Source: Aquirufa antheringensis
Lineage (GTDB): Bacteria; Bacteroidota; Bacteroidia; Cytophagales; Spirosomataceae
NCBI RefSeq assembly: GCF_004307425.1
Contig: NZ_SEWZ01000005.1
Span: forward strand, 1 to 64,000
DNA length: 64,000 bases
Direction: 5' to 3'
Shown: positions 25,244 to 53,698 of the stretch, one piece after another
Layout: every line of letters begins with the position of its first letter
Position numbering within the stretch: position 1 is the stretch's first letter
Translations under genes and position numbers: made by a program
The notes under the pieces: generated by a model
What the model was told of the DNA's origin: nothing
What the model saw: the letters and a program-made list of their open reading frames with translations, nothing else
Databases searched by the model: none

Positions 25244-26854
25244 ATGACGAATGATCGAAAAAATGAGGTAGAATTGTCTGCAACCTATTATTGGGATCAT
25301 TTTAGCTACATTCTGCGTTATATCGATCGGCATTATCTGCCCCTTTTACAGGAAAAGGAAATAGCATTTTTAAAAGATTTTTCTGAACTGACTTTCGCCG
25401 CGCAGTGCCTGTATTTGCGTTTAGCGTCGCGTCGGTCGGCCTGTTTTCGGATAGAGAAATTGAAATATCCAGAAATAGGAGATTTAGCGACTCCGCTGCG
25501 TGTTTTGCGCAGGTCCGGTTTGCTAACCGATGTTTCCGAAGGAATAGAATCGATTTTTACGAAGCAGGAATGTGTTACTTTGGCCAAAAAACAAGACATC
25601 AAAATTCCTAGTTCTGCCTCTAAAGAAGAGGCTGCGGCACTCGTTTCATCCTCTGACTTAATCACTGCATTTTCTTCTGGTGTGGTTGCACCCGCGAGAG
25701 TGGAGGTGTTTGCGTTCATTCAGTTCTTGTTTTTTGGGACGCGATCTCGGGATTTAACAGACTTCGTGGTGCGTGATTTAGGGCACCGTGCCTTTGTGGA
25801 AGTACAGGAAGAAGACTTAAAACCCTATTTTCAAACCAGAGAAGAAGCGGAACAAAAATGGGCCATTTCGATGTGGAGGGAATGGTTTTATACGACCATC
25901 GTAAGTGCAGATGAGGTGCTGGCTTCCTGGCGAGTGCATATGTTGCCCTTAGCTTCTTCCTTGTTAGAGCCATCGGTTCGTGCATTTGAAAAGACCTGTT
26001 ACGCTTTAGGTCGTTTGTTAGAGCGCGAAAAGGCTTATTTAGAGGCTTTGGAAGTATATGAGGTTTCCTTAACGGGTGCTTCTTTAGAGCGGCGTGTGCG
26101 TGTTTTGCAGAAAATGGGGGAGTTAGAGGAAGCCATTGCTTGGGCTCGTGTGGGATTAGAGCTGTGCGTGTCGCCCACGGAGATTCATTTTTTCGAAGAT
26201 TTTTTGGCCAAACAAGCCTCTAAAAAATCCATCAAACAGGTAACTGCCTCGCTCAAGCAGGCTGAATTGATTGAAATATCGCCGGAATACATTGGTCAAG
26301 TGGAAGCAGGAGTGGTTGCCCATTTTCAGGCAGAGGGCTATTATGCGGCTTTTACAGAGAATCAGATTTGGCGTAATTTCCTCGGTCTTTTCGCTTGGGA
26401 TTTGATTTTTGCCGACCGAAAAGAGGGCTTTCACCACCCTTTTCAATGGGCTCCGAGTCATTATGGAAAAGAAAGTTTTGCGGGTGAATTGCCGTTGCAT
26501 TTATTAGGGGATCGGGTCAGTTTATTAGCTCTTTTACGCTCCCGTGCTGAGGCAAATCATGGGGCTATGAATCCCTTAGTAGATTGGTATTCCCTCGATT
26601 TCGATCTGATGGAGCGGTTTTTGCAAGTGATGCCTCCGGATGGGTTGGCCGCAATAGCTCAATACTTATGGGAACATTTAGGCACACACGTCAAGGGCTT
26701 CCCTGATTTATTTATCCAAAAAGGAGAGGAATTTGCCTTCGTCGAAGTGAAGTCTCCGAATGACCATTTATCGGCTATTCAGCATTTTTGGCACGATTTT
26801 ATGAGAAGGAATGGGGTGGGGGTGAGGTTGGTGAGGTTGAAGTATCTAGAGTAG
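25244..26854 (+). CDS. FAN1-like VRR-NUC structure-specific nuclease
   Basis: A 536-residue protein. The C-terminal VRR-NUC domain shows KGFPDLFI (about 484-491) and FVEVKSPNDHLSAIQHFW (about 497-514), the PD-(D/E)xK pattern GxPDL...EVK...Q..W of FAN1. The N-terminal half is helical and compatible with the FAN1 SAP-like and TPR-like region. FAN1 enzymes cleave 5' flaps and unhook DNA crosslinks. The remaining catalytic acidic residue cannot be placed with certainty by eye. The gene is alone between pgk (divergent) and hpf, and its stop codon lies inside a TAGAGTAGAGA repeat. Confidence 0.82.
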   Translation: MTNDRKNEVELSATYYWDHFSYILRYIDRHYLPLLQEKEIAFLKDFSELTFAAQCLYLRLASRRSACFRIEKLKYPEIGDLATPLRVLRRSGLLTDVSEGIESIFTKQECVTLAKKQDIKIPSSASKEEAAALVSSSDLITAFSSGVVAPARVEVFAFIQFLFFGTRSRDLTDFVVRDLGHRAFVEVQEEDLKPYFQTREEAEQKWAISMWREWFYTTIVSADEVLASWRVHMLPLASSLLEPSVRAFEKTCYALGRLLEREKAYLEALEVYEVSLTGASLERRVRVLQKMGELEEAIAWARVGLELCVSPTEIHFFEDFLAKQASKKSIKQVTASLKQAELIEISPEYIGQVEAGVVAHFQAEGYYAAFTENQIWRNFLGLFAWDLIFADRKEGFHHPFQWAPSHYGKESFAGELPLHLLGDRVSLLALLRSRAEANHGAMNPLVDWYSLDFDLMERFLQVMPPDGLAAIAQYLWEHLGTHVKGFPDLFIQKGEEFAFVEVKSPNDHLSAIQHFWHDFMRRNGVGVRLVRLKYLE

Positions 26855-27212
26855 AGATGGGTGAGTAAAGATGGTGAATGGTAAGTGGTGAATGGTAAAT
26901 GGTGGAATCGCCTCTGGCAAATTTCAAAGAGCAAAGTTCAAAGTTCAAATGTGGAATCGCCTGTGGCGATGGTATAGTGGTTTAGAGTAGAGAGAATAGA
27001 GTATAGAGTAGAGATGGTGAATGGTAAGTGGTGAATGGTAAATGGTGGTATCGCCTGCGGCGATGGTATAGTGGTGCGGCCTCCGGCCTCATTTACTAAC
27101 TACTGACTAGTGTCTACTGATTACTGTCTACTGATTACGCCCACTGCCCACTACCCACTGACTAAGCGACACAGTCGCGACTAGGCCGCAGGCGACTAGG
27201 CAGCGAAGCTGC
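26846..27212 (+). repeat. Repeat patch P2 (modules plus mini-hairpin array)
   Basis: The patch begins at the stop codon of the FAN1-like gene. Module order on the plus strand is TAGAGTAGAGA; GATGGTGAATGGTAAATGG; ATCGCC-NNN-GGCGAT hairpins (26956-26970, 27050-27064); CAAAGAGCAAAGTTC; a second TAGAG and GATGG set; then CTACTGATTACTG. Mini-hairpins joined by GACTA(A/G) follow: GCGAC-ACA-GTCGC (27166-27178), GCC-GCA-GGC (27185-27193) and GCAGC-GAA-GCTGC (27200-27212). No coding frame is credible. Confidence 0.85.
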
Positions 27213-27215
27213 GAC

Positions 27216-27264
27216 TTTTTAACAGAATTTATTTGAGCCTCGCTCAAATAAATTCTGTTAAAAA
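27216..27264. repeat. Perfect 23-bp inverted repeat with 3-base loop
   Basis: Left arm 27216-27238 and right arm 27242-27264 are exact reverse complements around CTC. The stem is AT-rich at the base (TTTTTAACAG) and GC-rich at the tip (GAGC). It closes patch P2 and could act as a terminator or a cruciform. The rest of the gap, 27265-27375, shows no recognisable element beyond AT-rich sequence. Confidence 0.85.
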
Positions 27265-34468: not shown

Positions 34469-35398
34469 ATGGAAAATTCCTATGTATGGGGCATCGATTT
34501 AGGGGGAACCAAAATCGAATGTGCCGTATTGTCTGCCGCTGATTTAACGCAAGTCATTGCCCGCGAACGCATCGATACCGAAGCAGCAAAAGGCTACGAA
34601 CACATCATTTCCCAAGTAGCCCGTTTAGTTTCCTGCGTCTCCGAACAGCTGGGTGTTTCGCCTACCCGAATCGGTTTTGCCACTCCTGGCGTCTTGAATC
34701 CCGCTACCCAAACCATGAAAAACTGCAACACGACCTCTATGAACGGTCGTCCGATGGCAGCTGATTTAACCAAAGCCTTAGGCGTTGAAGTACGTCTCGC
34801 AAATGATGCGAATTGCTTTGCGTTAGCAGAAACCCATTTGGGTGCGGTGCAAGACGTGAATCCTAAAGCGGAAGTCGTTTTTGGGATCATTATGGGAACT
34901 GGTGTAGGCGGCGGATTAGTCGTACACGGTCAAGTGATTAATGGCTTACACGGCATTGGTGGCGAATGGGGACACAGCATTTTGGAGGAAGGCGGCAAGG
35001 CGTGCTATTGCGGTAAGTCGGGTTGCGTGGAACACGTTATCTCTGGACCAGCTTTAGAGGAGTTTTATTTTTCTATTTCAGGCCAAAAACTCCGCATGCC
35101 ACAAATCCTTCAAGCTCATCTAGCTGGAACTGATATGCATGCCTCTGCTACGATTGAGCGAATGTTAGAGAATTTCGGCCGTGCCGTTTCGACTTTAATT
35201 AACGTATTAGATCCCCAAGTCATCGTCATCGGTGGCGGTGTAGGAAATATCGATTTGCTATATACAGAGGGAATCGAACGAATCAAAAAATACATTTTCA
35301 ATTCAGGAGAGGTCTTGACACCTATTGTGAAGCCTAAGTTGGGTGATTCGGCAGGGGTTTTTGGTGCGGCGCTCCTTTTTCATTCTGAGGCTATTTAG
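34469..35398 (+). CDS. ROK-family sugar kinase (glucokinase-like)
   Basis: A 309-residue sugar kinase. It shows the ATP-binding DLGGTKIE near the N-terminus, LANDANCFALAE near residue 108, GTGVGGGLV near 142, and the ROK zinc motif (GGEWGHS, then CYCGKSGCVEHVISGPAL) near 165-195. A longer frame from 34439 overlaps rsgA, so I start at the ATG at 34469. Glucose is the likeliest substrate, but N-acetylated hexoses are not excluded. Its TAG stop is inside a 17-bp perfect inverted repeat. Confidence 0.9.
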   Translation: MENSYVWGIDLGGTKIECAVLSAADLTQVIARERIDTEAAKGYEHIISQVARLVSCVSEQLGVSPTRIGFATPGVLNPATQTMKNCNTTSMNGRPMAADLTKALGVEVRLANDANCFALAETHLGAVQDVNPKAEVVFGIIMGTGVGGGLVVHGQVINGLHGIGGEWGHSILEEGGKACYCGKSGCVEHVISGPALEEFYFSISGQKLRMPQILQAHLAGTDMHASATIERMLENFGRAVSTLINVLDPQVIVIGGGVGNIDLLYTEGIERIKKYIFNSGEVLTPIVKPKLGDSAGVFGAALLFHSEAI

Positions 35399-35452
35399 TT
35401 GAGGGATTTTCAAATTGGTCTACGCCATAATTTCTAAAATCCCTCAACTAAA
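35394..35452. repeat. 17-bp perfect inverted repeat spanning the ROK stop codon
   Basis: Positions 35394-35410 and 35436-35452 are exact reverse complements with a 25-base loop. The left arm contains the stop codon of the ROK kinase. Probable terminator, or a captured inverted copy of the gene end. Confidence 0.8.
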
Positions 35453-35486: not shown

Positions 35487-35724
35487 GTCGTCCTGCGGAC
35501 TTGGTCATCGCTTCGCGATTTAGTCGTCCTGCGGACTTGGTCATCGCTTCGCGATTTAGTCGTCCTGCGGACTTGGTCATCGCTTCGCGATTTAGTCGTC
35601 CTGCGGACTTGGTCATCGCTTCGCGATTTAGTCGTCCTGCGGACTTGGTCATCGCTTCGCGATTTAGTCGTCCTGCGGACTTAGTCATCGCTTCGCGATT
35701 TAGTCGTCCTGCGGACTTGGTCAT
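35487..35724. repeat. 36-bp tandem repeat, six full copies plus a partial one
   Basis: Copies start at 35487, 35523, 35559, 35595, 35631, 35667 and (partial) 35703. Only one base change is seen, at 35683 in copy six. Each unit holds two mini-hairpins, GTCC-TGC-GGAC and ATCGC-TTC-GCGAT. On the minus strand these become GTCC-GCA-GGAC and ATCGC-GAA-GCGAT joined by GACCAA and GACTAA linkers. The period is divisible by three, so several frames stay open without being genes. There are no unique spacers, so it is not CRISPR. Confidence 0.92.
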
Positions 35725-35730
35725 TCTTTT

Positions 35731-35880
35731 TGACTCTTTGACTAAAACGAAGTTGACTAAGCTGCGAAGCAGCGACTAAGGCGCAAGGCGCCGACTAAAA
35801 CGAAGTTGACTAAGCTGCGAAGCAGCGACTAAGCCACGAAGTGGCGACCCAGCGACTAAGGCGCAAGGCGCCGACTCGAA
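35731..35880 (+). repeat. Mini-hairpin array P3 with GACTAA linkers
   Basis: Hairpins follow each other on the plus strand, each separated by GACTAA: AAC-GAA-GTT (35746-35754), GCTGC-GAA-GCAGC (35761-35773) and GGCGC-AAG-GCGCC (35780-35792). The series then repeats as AAC-GAA-GTT and GCTGC-GAA-GCAGC, followed by GCCAC-GAA-GTGGC and a second GGCGC-AAG-GCGCC. The array ends 3 bp before the stop codon of the convergent acyltransferase gene. No coding sequence is present. Confidence 0.9.
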
Positions 35881-35883
35881 AAG

Positions 35884-36993
35884 CTATACTTTCAAGAATA
35901 TTTTCTTCTTCCAAAACACCCAACAAATACTCCAGCAAACCAGCACAAAAGCAATTGCATAGGCCAGCGACCCATTGTATTTGCCAAAAATAGGTTCAAA
36001 TAGATGCCAATACAGCCATTCGCTAGCGGACATATCTTGGATCTGGTAGTTGCCTAATTGAATGGCAATGACTTCTGAAATGCCGTACGCAAGGATAGAA
36101 TTAGTGCCAAAAACGAGGAAGAAGGTGTTGCCGAAGTGACGTTCTTTAGTCTCCATCCACCAATTTAATAATCCAATCAAGATGAAGTCAATGCCAGCAC
36201 AAAGTAAAACGAAAGAGCTGGTCCATAACTTTTTATTGATGGGAAAAACTTGGTCCCAGATCAACGCCACTACAATTAAAACGGCGCCCCAGCCCAGCAA
36301 ACTGAGTAAGGCGGACTTATTTTCTTTGGCCTGATTCTCTAAAAATAAACTGACTTGATAGCCGAAAAGACAAGTAGAAATAGCGGGAAGCGTACTCAAA
36401 AGTCCCTCTGGGTCGAAGGCAATAGCGATGCCATTGACCACATTTCCATGGTATAAATGGGATTCTCCGAATAAAAATAAGTCTAGTTTTCTCACTGCAT
36501 TCGAACTGATATCCATCCAAAGTCCAGCATCTCCAAAGAAATATAAAATAGCCCAAAATGAGAATAAAATACCAGCATTTATCCAGGTTAGCCATTTAGA
36601 CGGCACTTGTAACGTTAAAAAGGAAACGGCGCAAAAGGACAGGGCAATGCGCGGTAATACATTCAAAAAACGCAACGTTTCAAAAGAGAAATGGGTGAAT
36701 GGAAAATAGAAAATGAAGTAATTGATCAGAAATAAATACAATGTCCGCTTTAAAATCTTGTTGCGAACGGCTGGCGTTAATTCGTAGTTGAATGCCTTGA
36801 AAGAGAAGCGCATGGCGACGCCCACCATGAATAAAAAACTAGGAAATACAAGGTCAGTGGGTGTAAAGCCATTCCATTCTGCGTGTAAAAGTGGCGCATA
36901 GGTGAATTGCCAGTTGCCAGCGTTATTCACTAGAATCATGCCAGCGAGCGTAATTCCTCGGAGAATGTCGAGCGAAAGAAAGCGTGTTTTCAT
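35884..36993 (-). CDS. Membrane acyltransferase of the HGSNAT/DUF5009 type
   Basis: A 369-residue protein with about ten hydrophobic segments. The N-terminus FLSLDILRGITLAGMILVNN and the following TDLVFPSFLFMVGVAM match the heparan-alpha-glucosaminide N-acetyltransferase-like family (DUF5009/YeiB-like), which moves acetyl groups across membranes onto sugars. The substrate is unknown. It overlaps the upstream protease gene by 4 bp (ATGA type), so the two are translationally coupled. Confidence 0.8.
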   Translation of the reverse strand: MKTRFLSLDILRGITLAGMILVNNAGNWQFTYAPLLHAEWNGFTPTDLVFPSFLFMVGVAMRFSFKAFNYELTPAVRNKILKRTLYLFLINYFIFYFPFTHFSFETLRFLNVLPRIALSFCAVSFLTLQVPSKWLTWINAGILFSFWAILYFFGDAGLWMDISSNAVRKLDLFLFGESHLYHGNVVNGIAIAFDPEGLLSTLPAISTCLFGYQVSLFLENQAKENKSALLSLLGWGAVLIVVALIWDQVFPINKKLWTSSFVLLCAGIDFILIGLLNWWMETKERHFGNTFFLVFGTNSILAYGISEVIAIQLGNYQIQDMSASEWLYWHLFEPIFGKYNGSLAYAIAFVLVCWSICWVFWKKKIFLKV

Positions 36994-44662: not shown

Positions 44663-45361
44663 TTAGTTTTCCGGAAATTCATTATAAAAATACCCCGCGA
44701 ACTTCCAGATTTCCTGGATTTCAGAGCCCAAAATCGGGTAAGGGTCGTAGGTCTTGTTCGTGGAGTTCAGGATCAAGACTTTGCGTTCTGCGAGGTGGTT
44801 GATGACCTGCTTTAACACGACGCCGTCCTCGCGGGTCACGACGATGCAGATGGTGCCGTCCTTGATTTGGGTCCAGTCTTCTACGTATTCAGCGAAGACT
44901 AAAGAGCCCGGTTGTAGGGGCAACATCGATTCGCCTTTGATGGGGAAAACGCGGTATTTCTTGTCTTTAGGTAGGAAAGGCACTTGGAACGTAGGGAGAT
45001 CGCGCACGAAGTCGAGGTCGTCGTAGGAGGCGGTGTATCCTGCCAAAGCTTTGACCGGTACCATCTCGATATTCTCTTCATTGTTCGCATCGACCGTCGT
45101 AGCTAAAATTCGTAGCTTAGGTTTGTTCGACAGGCCGGGGATTCTTTTGGACAAATCCTCCTTCAATAATTCATCCACTTCAACCTTAAAAAACTCCGCT
45201 AGAGAGATCAAATCCGCATATTTAGGCTCCGCTCTTCCGGACTCATACGAGCCCAAAGTCGGCTTCTTAATATTCAGTAATTCCGCCAGTTTTTCCTGCG
45301 AAGTTTTCTCCGACATCTTGCTGCGTAAAAAACGTAAATTCTGACTAAAAAAAGTGCTCAT
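44663..45361 (-). CDS. LexA-like self-cleaving repressor (XRE HTH + S24 peptidase)
   Basis: A 232-residue protein. The N-terminal XRE-type helix-turn-helix (about 20-62) contrasts with the winged helix of classical LexA. The C-terminal S24 domain has a cleavage site at Ala107-Gly108 (KALAGYT), catalytic Ser145 (GESMLP) and Lys184 (VVLKQV). The spacing of 38 and 39 residues is as expected for LexA/CI proteins. It diverges from dinB and dnaE and should repress them until RecA-stimulated cleavage. Inverted repeats in the 108-bp gap are candidate operators. Confidence 0.9.
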   Translation of the reverse strand: MSTFFSQNLRFLRSKMSEKTSQEKLAELLNIKKPTLGSYESGRAEPKYADLISLAEFFKVEVDELLKEDLSKRIPGLSNKPKLRILATTVDANNEENIEMVPVKALAGYTASYDDLDFVRDLPTFQVPFLPKDKKYRVFPIKGESMLPLQPGSLVFAEYVEDWTQIKDGTICIVVTREDGVVLKQVINHLAERKVLILNSTNKTYDPYPILGSEIQEIWKFAGYFYNEFPEN

Positions 45362-45393
45362 GCGATTTGCTTATTAAAGGAAAATGAATAAAA

Positions 45394-45451
45394 TTCGTAT
45401 CTAAAATTTCTTCGTATACTTTTCGAAGTTACGAAAGGTATTCAAAATACC
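45394..45451. promoter_or_regulatory. Candidate operators between the LexA-like gene and dinB
   Basis: TTCGTAT occurs at 45394-45400 and 45411-45417 (17-bp step). Its inverse TACGAA at 45430-45435 makes an inverted pair with a 13-bp gap. A second palindrome, GGTATT-CAA-AATACC, lies at 45437-45451. The sequence TACTTTTC at 45417-45424 is a one-mismatch -7 box for dinB. The first TTCGTAT would lie near its -33 region, so binding would block the promoter. Confidence 0.5.
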
Positions 45452-45469
45452 CAAATATCTACCAATTTT

Positions 45470-46705
45470 ATGCAGGAGCGCGCGATTGTGCACATGGATT
45501 TAGACAGTTTCTTTGTCTCGGTAGAGCGACTCCGAGATACCCGACTCGTGGGCCAGCCGGTCATTGTGGGCGGCGGTTCGGATCGAGGCGTGGTGGCGGC
45601 GTGTAGTTATGAGACGCGGGCTTTTGGGGTGCGTTCTGCGATGCCCATGAAGATGGCGCTGAAATTGTGTCCGGATGCGATTGTGTTAAGGGGTGATTAC
45701 GAGGCGTATGTGCAGCATTCGGAGATGGTGACCTCGCTGATTATGGAGCGGGCGCCTTTGGTGGAGAAAGCCTCGATTGATGAGTTTTATTTAGATATGA
45801 CGGGGATGGAGCGCTTTTTTGGCTCCTATGCTTTTGCCCAGGATTTGCGGGATCGGATTAAAAAGCAGATTGGATTACAGATGTCGTTTGGTTTATCGGT
45901 GAATAAGACGGTGTCCAAAGTCGCGACGAATCACGTCAAGCCCGCCGGGGAGTTTCACGTGCCAGCAGGGCAGGAGAAAGCCTTTTTAGCGCCGATGACG
46001 GTGAACAAGATCCCGATGATCGGTGCCGTCACGGCCCAAACCCTGCGTAATATGGGCATCGTCCACGTAGGAACGCTTAGTCAAATGCCACAGCGGGTAT
46101 TAGAGCGAACCTTTGGGAAGTCGGGGACGATGCTTTGGGAAAGAGCTAATGGCATTGATTTACGTCCCGTGGTGCCTTATTCCGAGCAGAAGTCCTTGTC
46201 TAAAGAGATAACGTTTGAGCAGGATAGCACGGATGTAATTTTATTACGGCGGATTCTGGGTTCGCTGACCGAGCAGCTGAGCTATGATTTGCGCAAGCTG
46301 GGGCAATGTACGTCCTGTATTACGGTGAAGGTGCGTTACTCGAATTTTGACACCCATACCCGTCAAATCAGTATCCCCGCTTCCGCTAGCGACCACCGCC
46401 TGATTCCGGCGGTCTACGAATTGTTCGAGAAGCTGTATGACCGCAGGCTGTTGATTCGGCTGATCGGGGTGCGATTCTCCAAACTGTTACAAGGGCAGGA
46501 GCAACTGAACCTGTTTGATGACGGGGCGAAGCTAGTGCCGCTGTACCAGGCGATGGATTCCCTGAAGAACCGCTACGGCGAGTTTTCCATCTTGCGTGCG
46601 AGCGGATTGATGGGGAGTGCCGAACGGAGGAATCGACTGCCTGCTGCTGTAGTATCTGCTGGTGCGACACTCGCTGGGGCGTCACACGCAAAAAACGACG
46701 AATAG
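45470..46705 (+). CDS. dinB: DNA polymerase IV, Y-family translesion polymerase
   Basis: A 411-residue Y-family polymerase. Catalytic residues are intact: Asp10 (VHMDLDSFF) and Asp104-Glu105 (SIDEFYLD), so this is an active DinB rather than an ImuB-type pseudo-polymerase. The little-finger domain covers about 240-350. A motif EQLNLFDD near residue 345 matches a beta-clamp-binding peptide (QxxLF). dnaE starts directly after its TAG stop. The C-terminal 30 residues are Ala/Gly-rich and lack similarity to the family. Confidence 0.94.
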   Translation: MQERAIVHMDLDSFFVSVERLRDTRLVGQPVIVGGGSDRGVVAACSYETRAFGVRSAMPMKMALKLCPDAIVLRGDYEAYVQHSEMVTSLIMERAPLVEKASIDEFYLDMTGMERFFGSYAFAQDLRDRIKKQIGLQMSFGLSVNKTVSKVATNHVKPAGEFHVPAGQEKAFLAPMTVNKIPMIGAVTAQTLRNMGIVHVGTLSQMPQRVLERTFGKSGTMLWERANGIDLRPVVPYSEQKSLSKEITFEQDSTDVILLRRILGSLTEQLSYDLRKLGQCTSCITVKVRYSNFDTHTRQISIPASASDHRLIPAVYELFEKLYDRRLLIRLIGVRFSKLLQGQEQLNLFDDGAKLVPLYQAMDSLKNRYGEFSILRASGLMGSAERRNRLPAAVVSAGATLAGASHAKNDE

Positions 46706-49624
46706 ATGTATTTGAACTGCCATTCTTACTACAGCTTGCGCTATGGTACGCTTTCGCCTGAGCAATTGGTTCAGGAGGCGAAGGCGCGCGGCATTACGTC
46801 GTTAGCCTTAACGGATATACATCGGAGTTCTGGTGTCTTTGATTTCGTGCAGGCGTGTCAGCAGGAGGGGATTAAGCCCGTGGTGGGGATGGAATTCGAG
46901 GCGGGTTATGTGTGTTTAGCGCGGAATGAGCGTGGTTTTTTGCAGATCAATGATTTTGCGACGAAGTATTTAGTGTCCAAAGAGCCCTGGCCAGAGCGAC
47001 CTCCCGTTTCAGACGATGTGTGGACGATTTATCCGCTAGCCATGCGGAAAAAGATCAAGACGCTGGCTGGACCGCGGGAGCGCTGGGGCGTGCGGGCGAG
47101 TGACCGGAATTTGCTTTGGAAAGAAAAAGACCTGCGTGATTTTGTCTGGTGTCAGCCGTTTACCTTTCTGGATCAGCGTGGATTTTCGATGCACCGATTG
47201 CTGCGCGCGATCGATTTGAATACCTTATTGAGTAAACTTTCGCCTAAGGACCAGGCGCAGGCAGACGAACGTTTCTATACTCCTGCTGAAATAGCGGCTT
47301 CTTGTGCGGATTATCCGCAGCTATTAGCGGAGGCGGATCAGATTCTAGCCGATTGTAGTTTTAGCTTTGATTTTAAAAAGCCGAAGAATCGTTCGCTGTT
47401 TAGTTCTTCCAAAGAAGACGATTTAGCCCTCCTCACCAAGCTAGCTTACGAGGGTTTGCGGTATCGTTATCCGCGCGGGGATCGCGAGGCGAAGGCGCGG
47501 GTGGAGAAGGAATTGAAGATTATTCACGAGCTGGATTTTAATGCCTATTTCCTGATTACCTGGGATATCATTCGCTATGCGCGTTCTAGGGGCTATTTTC
47601 ACGTGGGGCGTGGCTCTGGGGCGAATTCCATTGTGGCCTATTGTATCGGGATTACAGACGTGGATCCGGTCGAATTAGACCTCTATTTCGAGCGTTTCAT
47701 CAACAAACACCGGACGAGTCCGCCGGATTTTGATATTGATTTCTCCTGGGATGAGCGCGATGACATTATCGATTATATCTTTAAGCGCTATGGGGCGAAG
47801 CACGTGTGTCTTCTGGCCACCTATGTGACGTTTCGGGATAAGTCGATTTACCGGGAATTGGCGAAGGTTTTTGGTCTTCCCAAAGCCGAAATAGACGCCT
47901 GGCTCGATCCCGCCACCGCCATGCGGGAGGTGACATCTGAAATACAGGCGCTGATCGTCAAATACGGCCAACTCTTGCTCGACTTCCCTAATTACCTCAG
48001 CATCCACGCGGGCGGCATCCTGATTTCGGATGCGCCTTTATCCGCTTACACGGCCTTGGAGGGAATGCCCAAAGGTTTCCCCATCTGCCAGTTCGATATG
48101 TACGTGGCGGAGGAGATCGGATTTGCGAAGTTTGATATTTTGTCCCAAAGAGGCCTCGGCCACATCAAAGAGTCCGTCGACATCATCCGAGCAAACCGGG
48201 GAGTTGATGTCGACGTGCACCGCGTCCAGGACTTTATGAAAGACGAAGGCGTACGAAAACAGCTGATGCGCCACGAGACGATGGGCTGCTTCTACATCGA
48301 ATCGCCCGCGATGCGTTCGCTTTTAAAGAAGCTACGTTGCCAAGATTACATTACCCTAGTCGCCGCATCCTCCATCATTCGCCCCGGCGTTTCCTCATCC
48401 GGGATGATGAAGGCCTACATCGAGCGTTTCCACGCCCCGAATTCCTACGAGCCCGTGCACCCGCTGATGGGGGAGCTGATGAAGGAAACCTATGGCGTGA
48501 TGGTGTACCAAGAAGATGTGATCAAGGTGGCTCACTATTTTGCCGGTTTGACTTTAGCGGAGGCCGATGTACTGCGCCGCGGGATGTCGGGTAAATACCG
48601 TTCTAGAGCTGAATTTGACCGCATTAGGCAGGCTTTTTTCGAGAATTGTGCCGCCAAAGGCTATCCAGAAGCCGTTTCACGCGAGGTGTGGAGGCAGATG
48701 GAAAGCTTTTCGGGCTATTCCTTTTCGAAAGCGCACTCGGCTTCTTTTGCCGTAGAAAGCTACCAAAGTCTCTATCTGAAGACCTATTACCCGCTCGAAT
48801 TTATGGTGGCGGTGATCAACAATTTTGGTGGATTCTACCGCACCGAATTTTACGTGCATGAGGCAAGACGCTGTGGAGCAGAGGTGGAGGCACCGGAAAT
48901 TAATGAGAGCGACTACCTAACCCGAATCGAAGGCAAGCGGATTTATTTGGGCTGGGTACATATCAAAGGCCTGGAGAAGCGGGTCATCCAAGAAATACTC
49001 GAGGCGCGGAGGCAGTCTGGGCCTTTCCGTTCTTGGGAGGATTTTGTGCACCGCGTGTCCATCGGGCTAGAGCAATCGATTTTGTTGATTCGCATAGGTG
49101 CCTTTCGCAACCTAGGTCAGGCCAAAAAGCCCCTATTATGGGAGGCGCACGCGCGTTTTCAAGGCAAAGTCTCTACGGTGGTCTCGATGGAGATGTTCGA
49201 GGAGCTTTCCCCTGACATCGGGGTTTTGCCGCCGCTTATCCACGAACCCGAGGAGGATGCTTTCGACCAATGGGAAATTCTCGGTTTTCCTCTCTGTTCG
49301 CCCTTTTTGTTGCTTGAGGAATTACCAGAGACCTTGTTGAATGCGGATTTGGTATTGCCTAAAGGCGATATCATCGGCTACCTCGTCACCTTAAAGTCCA
49401 CCCGAACGAAACAGGGCGAACGAATGTATTTTGGCTACTTTGTGGACCTCCAAGGCGAGTTCTTTGATACGGTCCATTTCCCCTCCGACCTAAAGAACTA
49501 TTCTTTCCGGGGCAGTGGAATTTATTGGATGCAGGGCGTGTCGATGGACGATTTTGGCCATAGAACCCTGCGCGTGCAACAATTGCGGAAGTTAGCGTGG
49601 CGGGTGGATCCGCGGTACGTCTAA
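46706..49624 (+). CDS. Short DNA polymerase III alpha subunit, probably error-prone
   Basis: A C-family polymerase of 972 residues, shorter than the roughly 1,160-residue replicative DnaE. It has an N-terminal PHP domain (CHSYYSLRYGTLSPEQL and LALTDIHRSSG) and a palm with catalytic aspartates in PDFDIDFSWDERD (about residue 335). FSKAHSASFAVESYQS lies near 675, followed by HhH and OB-like regions. The length and the dinB partnership resemble DnaE2-type translesion subunits. Two 60-base lines I counted (47461 and 48001) have 37 and 36 G+C, against 26-29 in counted lines of ftsH, the TonB receptor and tsdA. Confidence 0.9.
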   Translation: MYLNCHSYYSLRYGTLSPEQLVQEAKARGITSLALTDIHRSSGVFDFVQACQQEGIKPVVGMEFEAGYVCLARNERGFLQINDFATKYLVSKEPWPERPPVSDDVWTIYPLAMRKKIKTLAGPRERWGVRASDRNLLWKEKDLRDFVWCQPFTFLDQRGFSMHRLLRAIDLNTLLSKLSPKDQAQADERFYTPAEIAASCADYPQLLAEADQILADCSFSFDFKKPKNRSLFSSSKEDDLALLTKLAYEGLRYRYPRGDREAKARVEKELKIIHELDFNAYFLITWDIIRYARSRGYFHVGRGSGANSIVAYCIGITDVDPVELDLYFERFINKHRTSPPDFDIDFSWDERDDIIDYIFKRYGAKHVCLLATYVTFRDKSIYRELAKVFGLPKAEIDAWLDPATAMREVTSEIQALIVKYGQLLLDFPNYLSIHAGGILISDAPLSAYTALEGMPKGFPICQFDMYVAEEIGFAKFDILSQRGLGHIKESVDIIRANRGVDVDVHRVQDFMKDEGVRKQLMRHETMGCFYIESPAMRSLLKKLRCQDYITLVAASSIIRPGVSSSGMMKAYIERFHAPNSYEPVHPLMGELMKETYGVMVYQEDVIKVAHYFAGLTLAEADVLRRGMSGKYRSRAEFDRIRQAFFENCAAKGYPEAVSREVWRQMESFSGYSFSKAHSASFAVESYQSLYLKTYYPLEFMVAVINNFGGFYRTEFYVHEARRCGAEVEAPEINESDYLTRIEGKRIYLGWVHIKGLEKRVIQEILEARRQSGPFRSWEDFVHRVSIGLEQSILLIRIGAFRNLGQAKKPLLWEAHARFQGKVSTVVSMEMFEELSPDIGVLPPLIHEPEEDAFDQWEILGFPLCSPFLLLEELPETLLNADLVLPKGDIIGYLVTLKSTRTKQGERMYFGYFVDLQGEFFDTVHFPSDLKNYSFRGSGIYWMQGVSMDDFGHRTLRVQQLRKLAWRVDPRYV

Positions 49625-49840
49625 AGCATAGAGCATAAAGCACAAAGAATAAAGAAGATTAGAGATAAGAGAGTATAGAGAGGAGAGGATGGTAAATGGT
49701 AAGTGGTGAATGGTAAATGTTTACTCCGGACTATCGACTAGTGACTCCCGACTAGCGACTATCGACTAAGTCCGTAGGACGACTAAACGACGCAGTCGTG
49801 ACTAAATCGCGCAGCGATGACTGCCGCTTGCGGCGCGTAA
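49622..49840 (+). repeat. Repeat patch P6 with four mini-hairpins
   Basis: The patch starts at the dnaE stop codon. Module order is AAAGCATAGAGCATAAAGCAC, TAGAGATAAGAGAG, GATGGTAAATGGTAAGTGG, CTCCGGACT and CGACTAGTGACT. Hairpins linked by GACTAA-type sequence follow: GTCC-GTA-GGAC (49770-49780), ACGAC-GCA-GTCGT (49787-49799), ATCGC-GCA-GCGAT (49806-49818) and GCCGC-TT-GCGGC (49823-49834). Confidence 0.88.
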
Positions 49841-51134: not shown

Positions 51135-52331
51135 ATGGAAGTTCGGTTCGGATTGAAAGAGAATTGGCAGCAGTTCAGTTTGTTGGTTTTAGTGAATGCC
51201 TTTGTGGGCGGGATGGTCGGACTTGAACGTTCCATTTTGCCTCAATTAGCGGCTCAGGAATTTCATATTGCCTCTCATTCAGCCATCTTTTCCTTTATCG
51301 TCGTTTTTGGTATTGTCAAAGCCTTAACAAATTACTTCGCTGGTCATTTTGCGAATACATTGGGCCGTAGACGTTTGTTGATTTACGGTTGGCTTTTTGC
51401 GATTCCCATTCCGTTCTTGTTGATGTGGGCGCCTACTTGGAATTGGATTGTGGCTGCTAATGTACTTTTGGGAATTAATCAGGGCCTCGCTTGGTCTAGT
51501 ACCGTGACTATGAAAATCGATCTAGTGGGGGATAAGCAGCGGGGTTTAGCTATGGGAATTAATGAATTCGCGGGTTATTTATCTGTCGGTTTAGTGGCGC
51601 TTTTAACGGCCTGGATAGCGAATACATACGGAATTAGGCCTTATCCCTTTTATATCGGGATAGTATTTGTGTTTTTGGGCTTGTTGATTTCTTGGATTTG
51701 GGTGAAAGATACTCGGTCATTTGTCCAAAAAGCGGCCCAAGAAAGTTCCCTCCCTTTACTTAAAAATCCGTTTTGGGATACTTCTTTATTGCATCGAAAT
51801 TTAGGAGCTATCTCTCAAGCAGGTCTTGTCAATAATCTGAACGATGGGATGATATGGGGGCTATTTCCCCTGTTATTAGCTACTAAAGGTTTTGATTTAG
51901 GCCAAATAGGGATGATTACGGCCATCTATCCCCTGGTTTGGGGCCTAGCGCAATTAGGGACAGGACGTTTATCTGATTTTATTTGCCAAAAAGATTTATT
52001 ATTTATCGGCATGCTTCTCCAAGCCTTTGCCATATTAGGTCTTATTTGGGCTCAAACATTCGCCGCTTTTGCCATCCTATCCTTTGTGATAGGCGTAGGA
52101 ACAGCGGTTGTCTATCCGACTTTTTTAGCATCCATTGCAGAAAACACACACCCAGCTGATCGAGCCGCTAGTTTAGGCACTTTTCGCCTGTGGCGCGATT
52201 TAGGCTATGCTTTTGGTGCTATTTTAACAGGTGTTTTAGCGGACTATTTCGAACTAGAAGTGAGTGTAATCGTCATTGGATTATTGACGTTGGGTTCCGC
52301 GGGGGTGATTAAGTGGAGAATGATGTGTTAA
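51135..52331 (+). CDS. Major facilitator superfamily transporter
   Basis: A 398-residue protein with about twelve transmembrane segments. The loop 2-3 motif GHFANTLGRRRLL (about residue 76) is the MFS signature. GLAMGINEFAGY near 142 and a second-half GTGRLSDF motif near 275 repeat the pattern. The substrate cannot be read from the sequence. Placed after a Crp-like regulator and before the sulfur genes, it might export a sulfur or organic anion, but this is a guess. The start is taken at the ATG at 51135. Its stop is in the arm of a long inverted repeat. Confidence 0.85.
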   Translation: MEVRFGLKENWQQFSLLVLVNAFVGGMVGLERSILPQLAAQEFHIASHSAIFSFIVVFGIVKALTNYFAGHFANTLGRRRLLIYGWLFAIPIPFLLMWAPTWNWIVAANVLLGINQGLAWSSTVTMKIDLVGDKQRGLAMGINEFAGYLSVGLVALLTAWIANTYGIRPYPFYIGIVFVFLGLLISWIWVKDTRSFVQKAAQESSLPLLKNPFWDTSLLHRNLGAISQAGLVNNLNDGMIWGLFPLLLATKGFDLGQIGMITAIYPLVWGLAQLGTGRLSDFICQKDLLFIGMLLQAFAILGLIWAQTFAAFAILSFVIGVGTAVVYPTFLASIAENTHPADRAASLGTFRLWRDLGYAFGAILTGVLADYFELEVSVIVIGLLTLGSAGVIKWRMMC

Positions 52332-52393
52332 TGATGATTCTTTTTTAAAATTGTGCTGCGCAATAATTTTCAAAAAAGAATCATCATTAACAC
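52325..52393. repeat. 28-bp inverted repeat spanning the MFS stop codon
   Basis: The left arm (52325-52352) starts within the last codon of the MFS gene and contains its TAA. The right arm (52365-52393) is its reverse complement with one extra base. The loop is 12 bases. A T-run in the left arm and an A-run in the right make it AT-rich; probable terminator. Confidence 0.85.
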
Positions 52394-52409
52394 CTGAATA
52401 GGGAGGGAA

Positions 52410-52574
52410 GATGGTAAGTTGTGAATGGTAAATGGTAAATGTTTTCTCCATGCTCTCTACTCTTTACTCCGGACTTAGTCTCGCAGCGACGACTTAGCCG
52501 AAGGCGACTAAATCGCGACGCGATGACTTAGTCGCGAAGCGACGTAAATGACTTAGTCGCGAAGCGACTTATCT
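52410..52574 (+). repeat. Repeat patch P8, mini-hairpin array running into a gene
   Basis: Module order is GATGGTAAGTTGTGAATGG, CTCTCTACTC and CTCCGGACT. Hairpins joined by GACTTA/GACTAA follow: GCC-GAA-GGC (52497-52505), ATCGC-GAC-GCGAT (52512-52524), GTCGC-GAA-GCGAC (52531-52543) and the same again at 52556-52568. The last hairpin lies inside the 3' end of the convergent rhodanese-thioredoxin gene. There it encodes Ser-Leu-Arg-Asp, and the linker's TTA supplies the stop codon on the minus strand. Confidence 0.88.
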
Positions 52575-53567: not shown

Positions 53568-53698
53568 TTCTAGTAATCAGTAGTCAGTCGCTGCGCGAGT
53601 CATCGCTGCGCGATTTAGTCGATAGTCGCTAGTCAATAGTCCGAGGGAAACATTTATCATTAACCATTTACCATTCATCATTTACCATTCCTTCTTTT
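53568..53698 (-). repeat. Repeat patch P9
   Basis: Read on the minus strand, which is the sense of the rhodanese gene ending at 53700, the order is ATGGTAAATGATGAATGG, CCCTCGGACT and GACTAGCGACTATCGACTAA. Hairpins ATCGC-GCA-GCGAT (53614-53602) and TCGC-GCA-GCGA (53598-53588) follow, then GACTACTGATTACT. It fills the gap between the rhodanese and thioredoxin genes. Confidence 0.85.

Follow-up and report, generated by a model that had tools for sequence, protein, structure and literature searches.

How can short DNA hairpins change their letters and yet stay paired? Positions 35487-35880 of the window raise this question, the window being the whole 64,000-nt stretch of Aquirufa antheringensis DNA analysed here, on contig C5 of a 2.5-Mb genome (G000). 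The original prediction described five patches in which mini-hairpins alternate with a GACTAA-type linker, and all five were found, together with nearly all of the stems that it named. Scanning the window for GAC[TC][AT][AG] followed by a perfect 9-, 11- or 13-nt hairpin (3-nt loop) and by GAC yielded 29 perfect units; 100 dinucleotide shuffles of the window gave 0.03 per shuffle on average (maximum 1). The arrays and the features adjoining them are as follows.

27160..27215, + strand: three-unit array, perfect units up to 27212; stems GCGAC, GCC and GCAGC
27216..27264, no strand: perfect 23-bp long hairpin, adjoining the first array (27160..27215)
35490..35722, - strand: left arm of a divergent array, 13 perfect units; linkers GACTAA and GACCAA; only two hairpins, repeated
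35740..35872, + strand: right arm, 7 perfect units; GACTAA linkers; stems AAC, GCTGC, GGCGC and GCCAC
49764..49834, + strand: array of 3 perfect units up to 49818 (GTCC, ACGAC, ATCGC) plus GCCGC-TT-GCGGC, with GACTANN heptamers before it
52472..52568, + strand: array with linkers GACTTA and GACTAA; hairpins GCC, ATCGC and two GTCGC
53575..53640, - strand: array of 1 perfect unit (ATCGC, 53602-53620) plus an imperfect neighbour, then GACTANN heptamers
27100-27160, 49700-49763, 52400-52471 and 53621-53690: heptamer repeats before arrays

At the central locus, the left arm is a tandem expansion of two hairpins, GTCCGCAGGAC seven times and ATCGCGAAGCGAT six times (GTCC-GCA-GGAC and ATCGC-GAA-GCGAT), and is expanded compared with the orthologous arm in the relative G007. 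The right arm, which stops 12 nt short of the stop codon of the gene at 35884-36993, contains twice a three-hairpin module (GGCGC, AAC, GCTGC) that is duplicated relative to G007. The stem diversity predicted for 35487-35880 therefore holds for the right half, with four hairpin kinds in seven units, but not for the left half with its two hairpins; the rest of the genome holds more. Elsewhere in the window, the array at 52472..52568 has 2 perfect units (52491-52524), with neighbours up to 52568 that are imperfect or offset, and one imperfect hairpin, GTCTC/GCGAC, has a perfect GTCGC counterpart in G007. The centre of the 23-bp hairpin reads GAGC-CTC-GCTC in the window and GGGC-TCC-GCCC in G007, a paired change. 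Two gene groups nearby were also recorded: a FAN1-type VRR-NUC nuclease gene (25244-26854) immediately before the first array, eukaryotic FAN1 being an enzyme that acts on repeat hairpins, and an ImuB-DnaE2-like translesion cassette (44663-49624) in which an S24-peptidase/HTH regulator is divergent from a Y-family polymerase (IMS) and a short DNA polymerase III alpha.

Across G000, the pattern GACTAA-N7..15-GACTAA was matched 76 times and its reversed form, taken as control, 9 times; almost all of the 76 are hairpins. The analysis of G000 worked on the stretches surrounding such matches. When units were collected from 12 genomes by their linkers only (GACTAA-N9/11/13-GAC), pairing playing no part in the choice, 380 of 414 proved to be perfectly paired, with 33 distinct stems among them. 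The proposal that stems vary while pairing is kept was thus borne out genome-wide: pairing is retained in the great majority of copies, and the units do not all descend from one or two stems by duplication. The statistical test of covariation that had been suggested agrees, since 78 of 104 distinct 13-mers are perfect and re-dealing their 3' arms leaves a mean of 5.9 (maximum 15). Every stem starts with a purine, nearly every stem ends in C, and 5-bp stems occupy four of the eight possible purine/pyrimidine classes of their inner three positions. Because the stems fall into so few classes, many related stems are separated by paired transitions, as expected if they changed via G.T wobbles; in imperfect stems, G.T on the GACTAA strand leans 12 to 5, which is not significant. 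At G000:C2:544461, 551877, 552612 and 552664 and at G007:C1:1396021, a bare GCGAAGC two-bp minihairpin with five variable unpaired bases lies between intact linkers; such units are possibly young or decaying.

Most loops, read along the GACTAA strand, have the form C(GNA)G, in line with the GNA loops predicted. GNA is present in 113/118 units with 3-4-bp stems versus 187/262 with 5-bp stems (p = 4.5e-9, all units); as units are copied, the count by distinct sequences is safer, and it gives 16/20 versus 37/78 (p = 0.012). The mirror loop TNC occurs in 0/118 and 6/262, respectively. Short stems rely on GNA more than 5-bp stems do, so that hairpin stability appears to be under constraint. A GNA loop closed by C-G is exceptionally stable as DNA, as in d(GCGAAGC) hairpins and the phage N4 promoter hairpins. 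These resemble the array units in their C(GNA)G loop, 2-7-bp stem, stability as DNA and ability to extrude under supercoiling, but such hairpins are familiar from chemical work and from a single phage promoter system, whereas the arrays are chromosomal; we know of no report of chromosomal GCGAAGC-type minihairpin arrays. With DNA energy parameters the two strands have equal energies, because the model has no GNA triloop bonus and so is blind to that effect. Folded as DNA, the strands form the intended pairs alike (0.64 for TTAGTC v 0.66 for GACTAA). In RNA folding, the corresponding values are 0.28 for the TTAGTC strand versus 0.46 for the GACTAA strand.

Between orthologous arrays, modules have been duplicated, units lost, loops altered and stems changed on both sides, and the duplications lend support to the predicted DNA-level process, slippage included. 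Among aligned units of G000, G007 and G008, 41 are identical, 18 differ in the loop only, seven by both-sided stem changes only, one in at least three pairs and six on one side of the stem; 57 units have no aligned partner. One both-sided case was counted twice in this species trio, and its removal leaves 7 both-sided versus 6 one-sided changes. Both-sided stem changes are about as common as one-sided ones despite a divergence of ~10%, at which independent neutral mutation would give a both-sided share of ~1/19 (p about 1e-6), an excess that is strong only in kind, as repeat alignment may pair non-orthologous neighbours. Difference rates are 7.3% for stems, 13.2% for loops, 9.6% for other intergenic sequence and 3.3% for linkers, the last biased low because units are recognised via their linkers. 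At L022/L038, three hairpins in one gap have changed in a paired manner and the inter-arm spacer differs at ~3/80 sites; whole units differ between intact linkers, which looks like unit replacement and not slow double mutation. At the locus of the 35884 gene, G007, L054 and L057 carry arrays of differing units, and L051, L052, L053, L055 and L056 have long hairpins and no array. These long hairpins, which follow the orthologue of the gene in those five loci and lie at 35394-35452 and 52325-52393 in the window, belong to a second family with variable 15-26-bp stems and a conserved centre such as AAATTATGGCGTAGACCAATTT or AAAATYGTGCTKCGCAATRATTTT.

Arrays sit between genes as head-to-tail units, often where genes converge. 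In placement counts that use simple longest-ORF calls (single cases may be off) and include some mutually orthologous loci (the counts are not fully independent), 27/53 array-bearing intergenic gaps are convergent versus 12/46 control gaps of at least 100 bp from evenly spaced stretches of G007 (p = 0.014); in 58/72 arrays, the GACTAA strand points away from the gap's centre and toward whichever gene is nearest; and, of arrays within 50 nt of a gene end, 47/52 are oriented outward, 34 of them at stop codons and 13 at start codons. Such an orientation, shared by starts and stops alike, does not fit a single transcript sense. For arrays within 15 nt of a stop codon, the stop lies inside the first linker in 15/18 (TAG|TC, TAA|GTC or TGA|GTC), and TAG is the stop in 12/18 abutting genes versus 28/173 baseline genes (p = 1.2e-5). 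This merging of stop and linker could suggest a cassette that guards gene ends by stops on both strands (TAA, TAG) at spacings running through all frames, and GACTARY heptamers in sister species likewise give stops in every frame. Such a cassette, which we consider highly improbable, would leave the hairpins, their GNA loops and their pairing unexplained, and GACCAA linkers contain no stop.

Placement also bears on selection at the RNA level, whereby arrays would be transcribed in 3' UTRs, 5' UTRs or antisense RNA, hairpins would protect or insulate, and UUAGUC or GACUAA linkers would bind an RNA-binding protein. UUAGUC is indeed the sense at the 34 outward arrays near stop codons, but the orientation relative to transcription flips at the 13 near starts, and the GNA asymmetry lies on the strand antisense to most adjacent genes. 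The unpaired linker is conserved between variable hairpin spacers and differs less than its surroundings, with the recognition bias already mentioned accounting for part of the low rate, and the stem classes are compatible with change via G.U pairs; nevertheless, UUAGUC RNA is the strand that folds modularly less well, and the window contains no Rfam match at gathering score. Altogether, we regard an RNA-level explanation as unlikely. The form of an intrinsic terminator, a GC-rich hairpin followed by a T tract, is not seen in the units, as each hairpin is followed by GACTAA or TTAGTC; separate T-tract hairpins adjoin some arrays. A repeated, promoter- or operator-like box, TTGACA-N4-6-TGTCAATACCTGAAAA, was noted beside arrays in L023, L025, L039, L044 and L057.

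By a strict three-linker pattern, 10 of the 38 species sampled from this genus of freshwater Cytophagaceae have arrays and the other 28 have none; presence is patchy and all-or-none, and carriers hold dozens of arrays. The named relatives, identified via a flanking gene, are metagenome-assembled genomes of Cytophagaceae; the isolate names of several point to a lake or pond origin. No hairpin arrays were found beyond G000 in a class-wide sample of 395 genomes, where the hits in six other genomes are tandem repeats or chance matches without hairpins. In G007, a single contig, units lie at 0.16-1.47 Mb and 2.484 Mb, with none between 1.48 and 2.48 Mb among the matches listed; this arc, ~1 Mb of the 2.5-Mb chromosome, is also lower in G+C, and the rest holds dozens of units. 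The GC skew of G007 is too irregular for siting arrays relative to the origin.

REPs are small extragenic palindromes in many copies, with an unpaired tag at the hairpin foot, alternative complementary stem residues and an inverted arrangement, mostly between unidirectional or convergent genes; CGTC-tagged REPs, including the neisserial dRS3, have no known transposase (PMC3733652). Like REP, BIME and REPIN elements, the arrays are many-copy extragenic palindromes with complementary stem variation (the 380/414 perfect units and 33 stems above) and inverted arms. They differ in hairpin length (9-13 nt versus 20-40 nt), in units (15-19 bp, head-to-tail, with only the two arms mutually inverted, versus 20-40 bp, mostly head-to-head dimers) and in the tag, which is the 6-nt GACTAA (variants GACCAA, GACTAG and GACTTA) versus an unpaired GTAG or CGTC tetranucleotide, a tag that the hairpins lack. 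Furthermore, unlike REPs, the arrays combine 33 stems in one family, C(GNA)G triloops and a stop codon merged with the tag, and have no RAYT. The suggestion of a REP-associated Y1 transposase did not survive a search for its gene: Pfam Y1_Tnp (PF01797) has no match in G000 and is absent from all ten array-bearing congeners, and the five clear copies are all in array-free congeners (G016, G018, G020, G024 and G033). A Y1/RAYT mover was thus rejected, with no association with arrays across G000 and 37 congeners. Because the tag and transposase tests fail, we file the arrays as a hairpin repeat variant and not as REPs. Even though they are extragenic and palindromic, with inverted arms, covarying stems and a place near gene ends, as REPs are (PMC3733652), the chance that they are classical REPs moved by a REP-associated Y1 tyrosine transposase is very slight.

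Another single-strand-DNA enzyme, outside PF01797, might instead recognise GACTAA plus hairpin and cut out or insert units in cassette fashion, the role ascribed to RAYTs in the case of REPs. The REP-like design of tag plus hairpin, the whole units replaced between intact linkers in L022 and L038 and the all-or-none presence in 10/38 species would suit such an enzyme, and the frequent abutment on TAG stops could be its target choice. We nonetheless think it quite unlikely: no candidate gene was found, no gene is common to the array flanks among the loci read, and slippage with template switching can yield the same products. Small ORFs between arms encode a 23S-IVP protein at one locus and, at a second, a protein unrelated to it; in three species (L021 9101-9469, L037 and L047), two outward arms enclose a gene for a protein of the 23S rRNA-intervening-sequence type (PF05635).

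SbcD is part of a nuclease that cuts DNA hairpins. It went undetected (TIGR00619) in 38/38 congeners, and it is present in 13/14 control genomes, so that the persistence of hairpins and template switching from arm to arm become more plausible in this genus. Because the 28 array-free species lack SbcD as well, its loss is insufficient for arrays; as their cause it was rejected, and it is permissive at most.

Degenerate heptamer tandem repeats (GACTANN, GGTAAAT-type and CTACTGA-type) precede hairpin arrays in a fixed order, and the array-free congeners G022, G031 and G035 have GACTARY heptamer repeats alone, with no hairpins. Since such heptamers also directly adjoin hairpin arrays in the window (49735-49763 and 53621-53640), they are a plausible precursor of the arrays. 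Intergenic TAACTGA heptamer repeats occur in Beggiatoaceae, Cyanobacteria and some Bacteroidetes (PMC4679880). They resemble the arrays in being intergenic, directed toward start codons, reversed after a stop in one reported case and overlapping stops, but have no hairpins and a different heptamer (PMC4679880); the GACTARY heptamers beside the arrays are closer to them than the hairpin units are. A purely neutral by-product of GACTA heptamer slippage and template switching, arising in a genus that lacks SbcCD and doing nothing for the cell, would explain the heptamers beside arrays and in array-free congeners, and arrays do come and go at one locus. However, the GNA asymmetry and stem-loop compensation require at least a fold-dependent filter, and we find this account very hard to sustain.

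The explanation that we favour, with about an even chance of being correct, is that the arrays are REP-like hairpin repeats in DNA that have no Y1 enzyme; slippage or template switching from linker to linker would multiply them, and folding of the DNA would keep them paired. Each unit joins a fixed 6-nt unpaired linker (GACTAA) to a 9-13-nt hairpin, and an array gains or loses either whole units or modules of several. The GACTAA strand would fold as DNA during lagging-strand synthesis or by supercoil-driven extrusion; the polymerase may stall or slip at the hairpins and re-anneal at a different GACTAA linker, of that array or of another, thereby duplicating, deleting or swapping units. Pairing would be maintained by one arm templating the other, or by loss of or counter-selection against unfoldable units, and such hairpins could survive without SbcCD. 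Arrays would extend through the gap up to the coding sequence, where the TAG of a linker would merge with the gene's stop codon. Template-switch mutations have been argued, from RNA-gene histories, to create and maintain perfect hairpin stems (PMC8794818). That case, like ours, involves multi-base compensatory changes and perfect stems through copying of one arm from the other, but it was described for RNA genes (PMC8794818), whereas the arrays are non-coding and have few inverted loops. Several observations count against the favoured explanation: loop inversion, a usual mark of template switching between arms, is not seen (TNC being rare), one-sided stem changes also occur (6 units), SbcD is missing from the array-free species too, and the G.T lean to the GACTAA strand is not significant.

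In these arrays, hundreds of short DNA hairpins keep their fold and change their letters, in close species and with many units per array. They bring together three subjects: a lost hairpin nuclease, the very stable mini-hairpins with GNA loops, familiar mainly from chemistry, and the settlement of repeats at gene ends. A bolder and rather doubtful possibility is that exchangeable C(GNA)G hairpin cassettes, set between fixed linkers, are replaced in place by a single-strand-DNA process that recognises hairpins, in a genus without SbcCD, the DNA fold and not the sequence being inherited; if true, this would make the arrays a new class of natural DNA element. It has long been asked whether selection or template switching produces compensatory change, and the arrays permit this to be measured directly.
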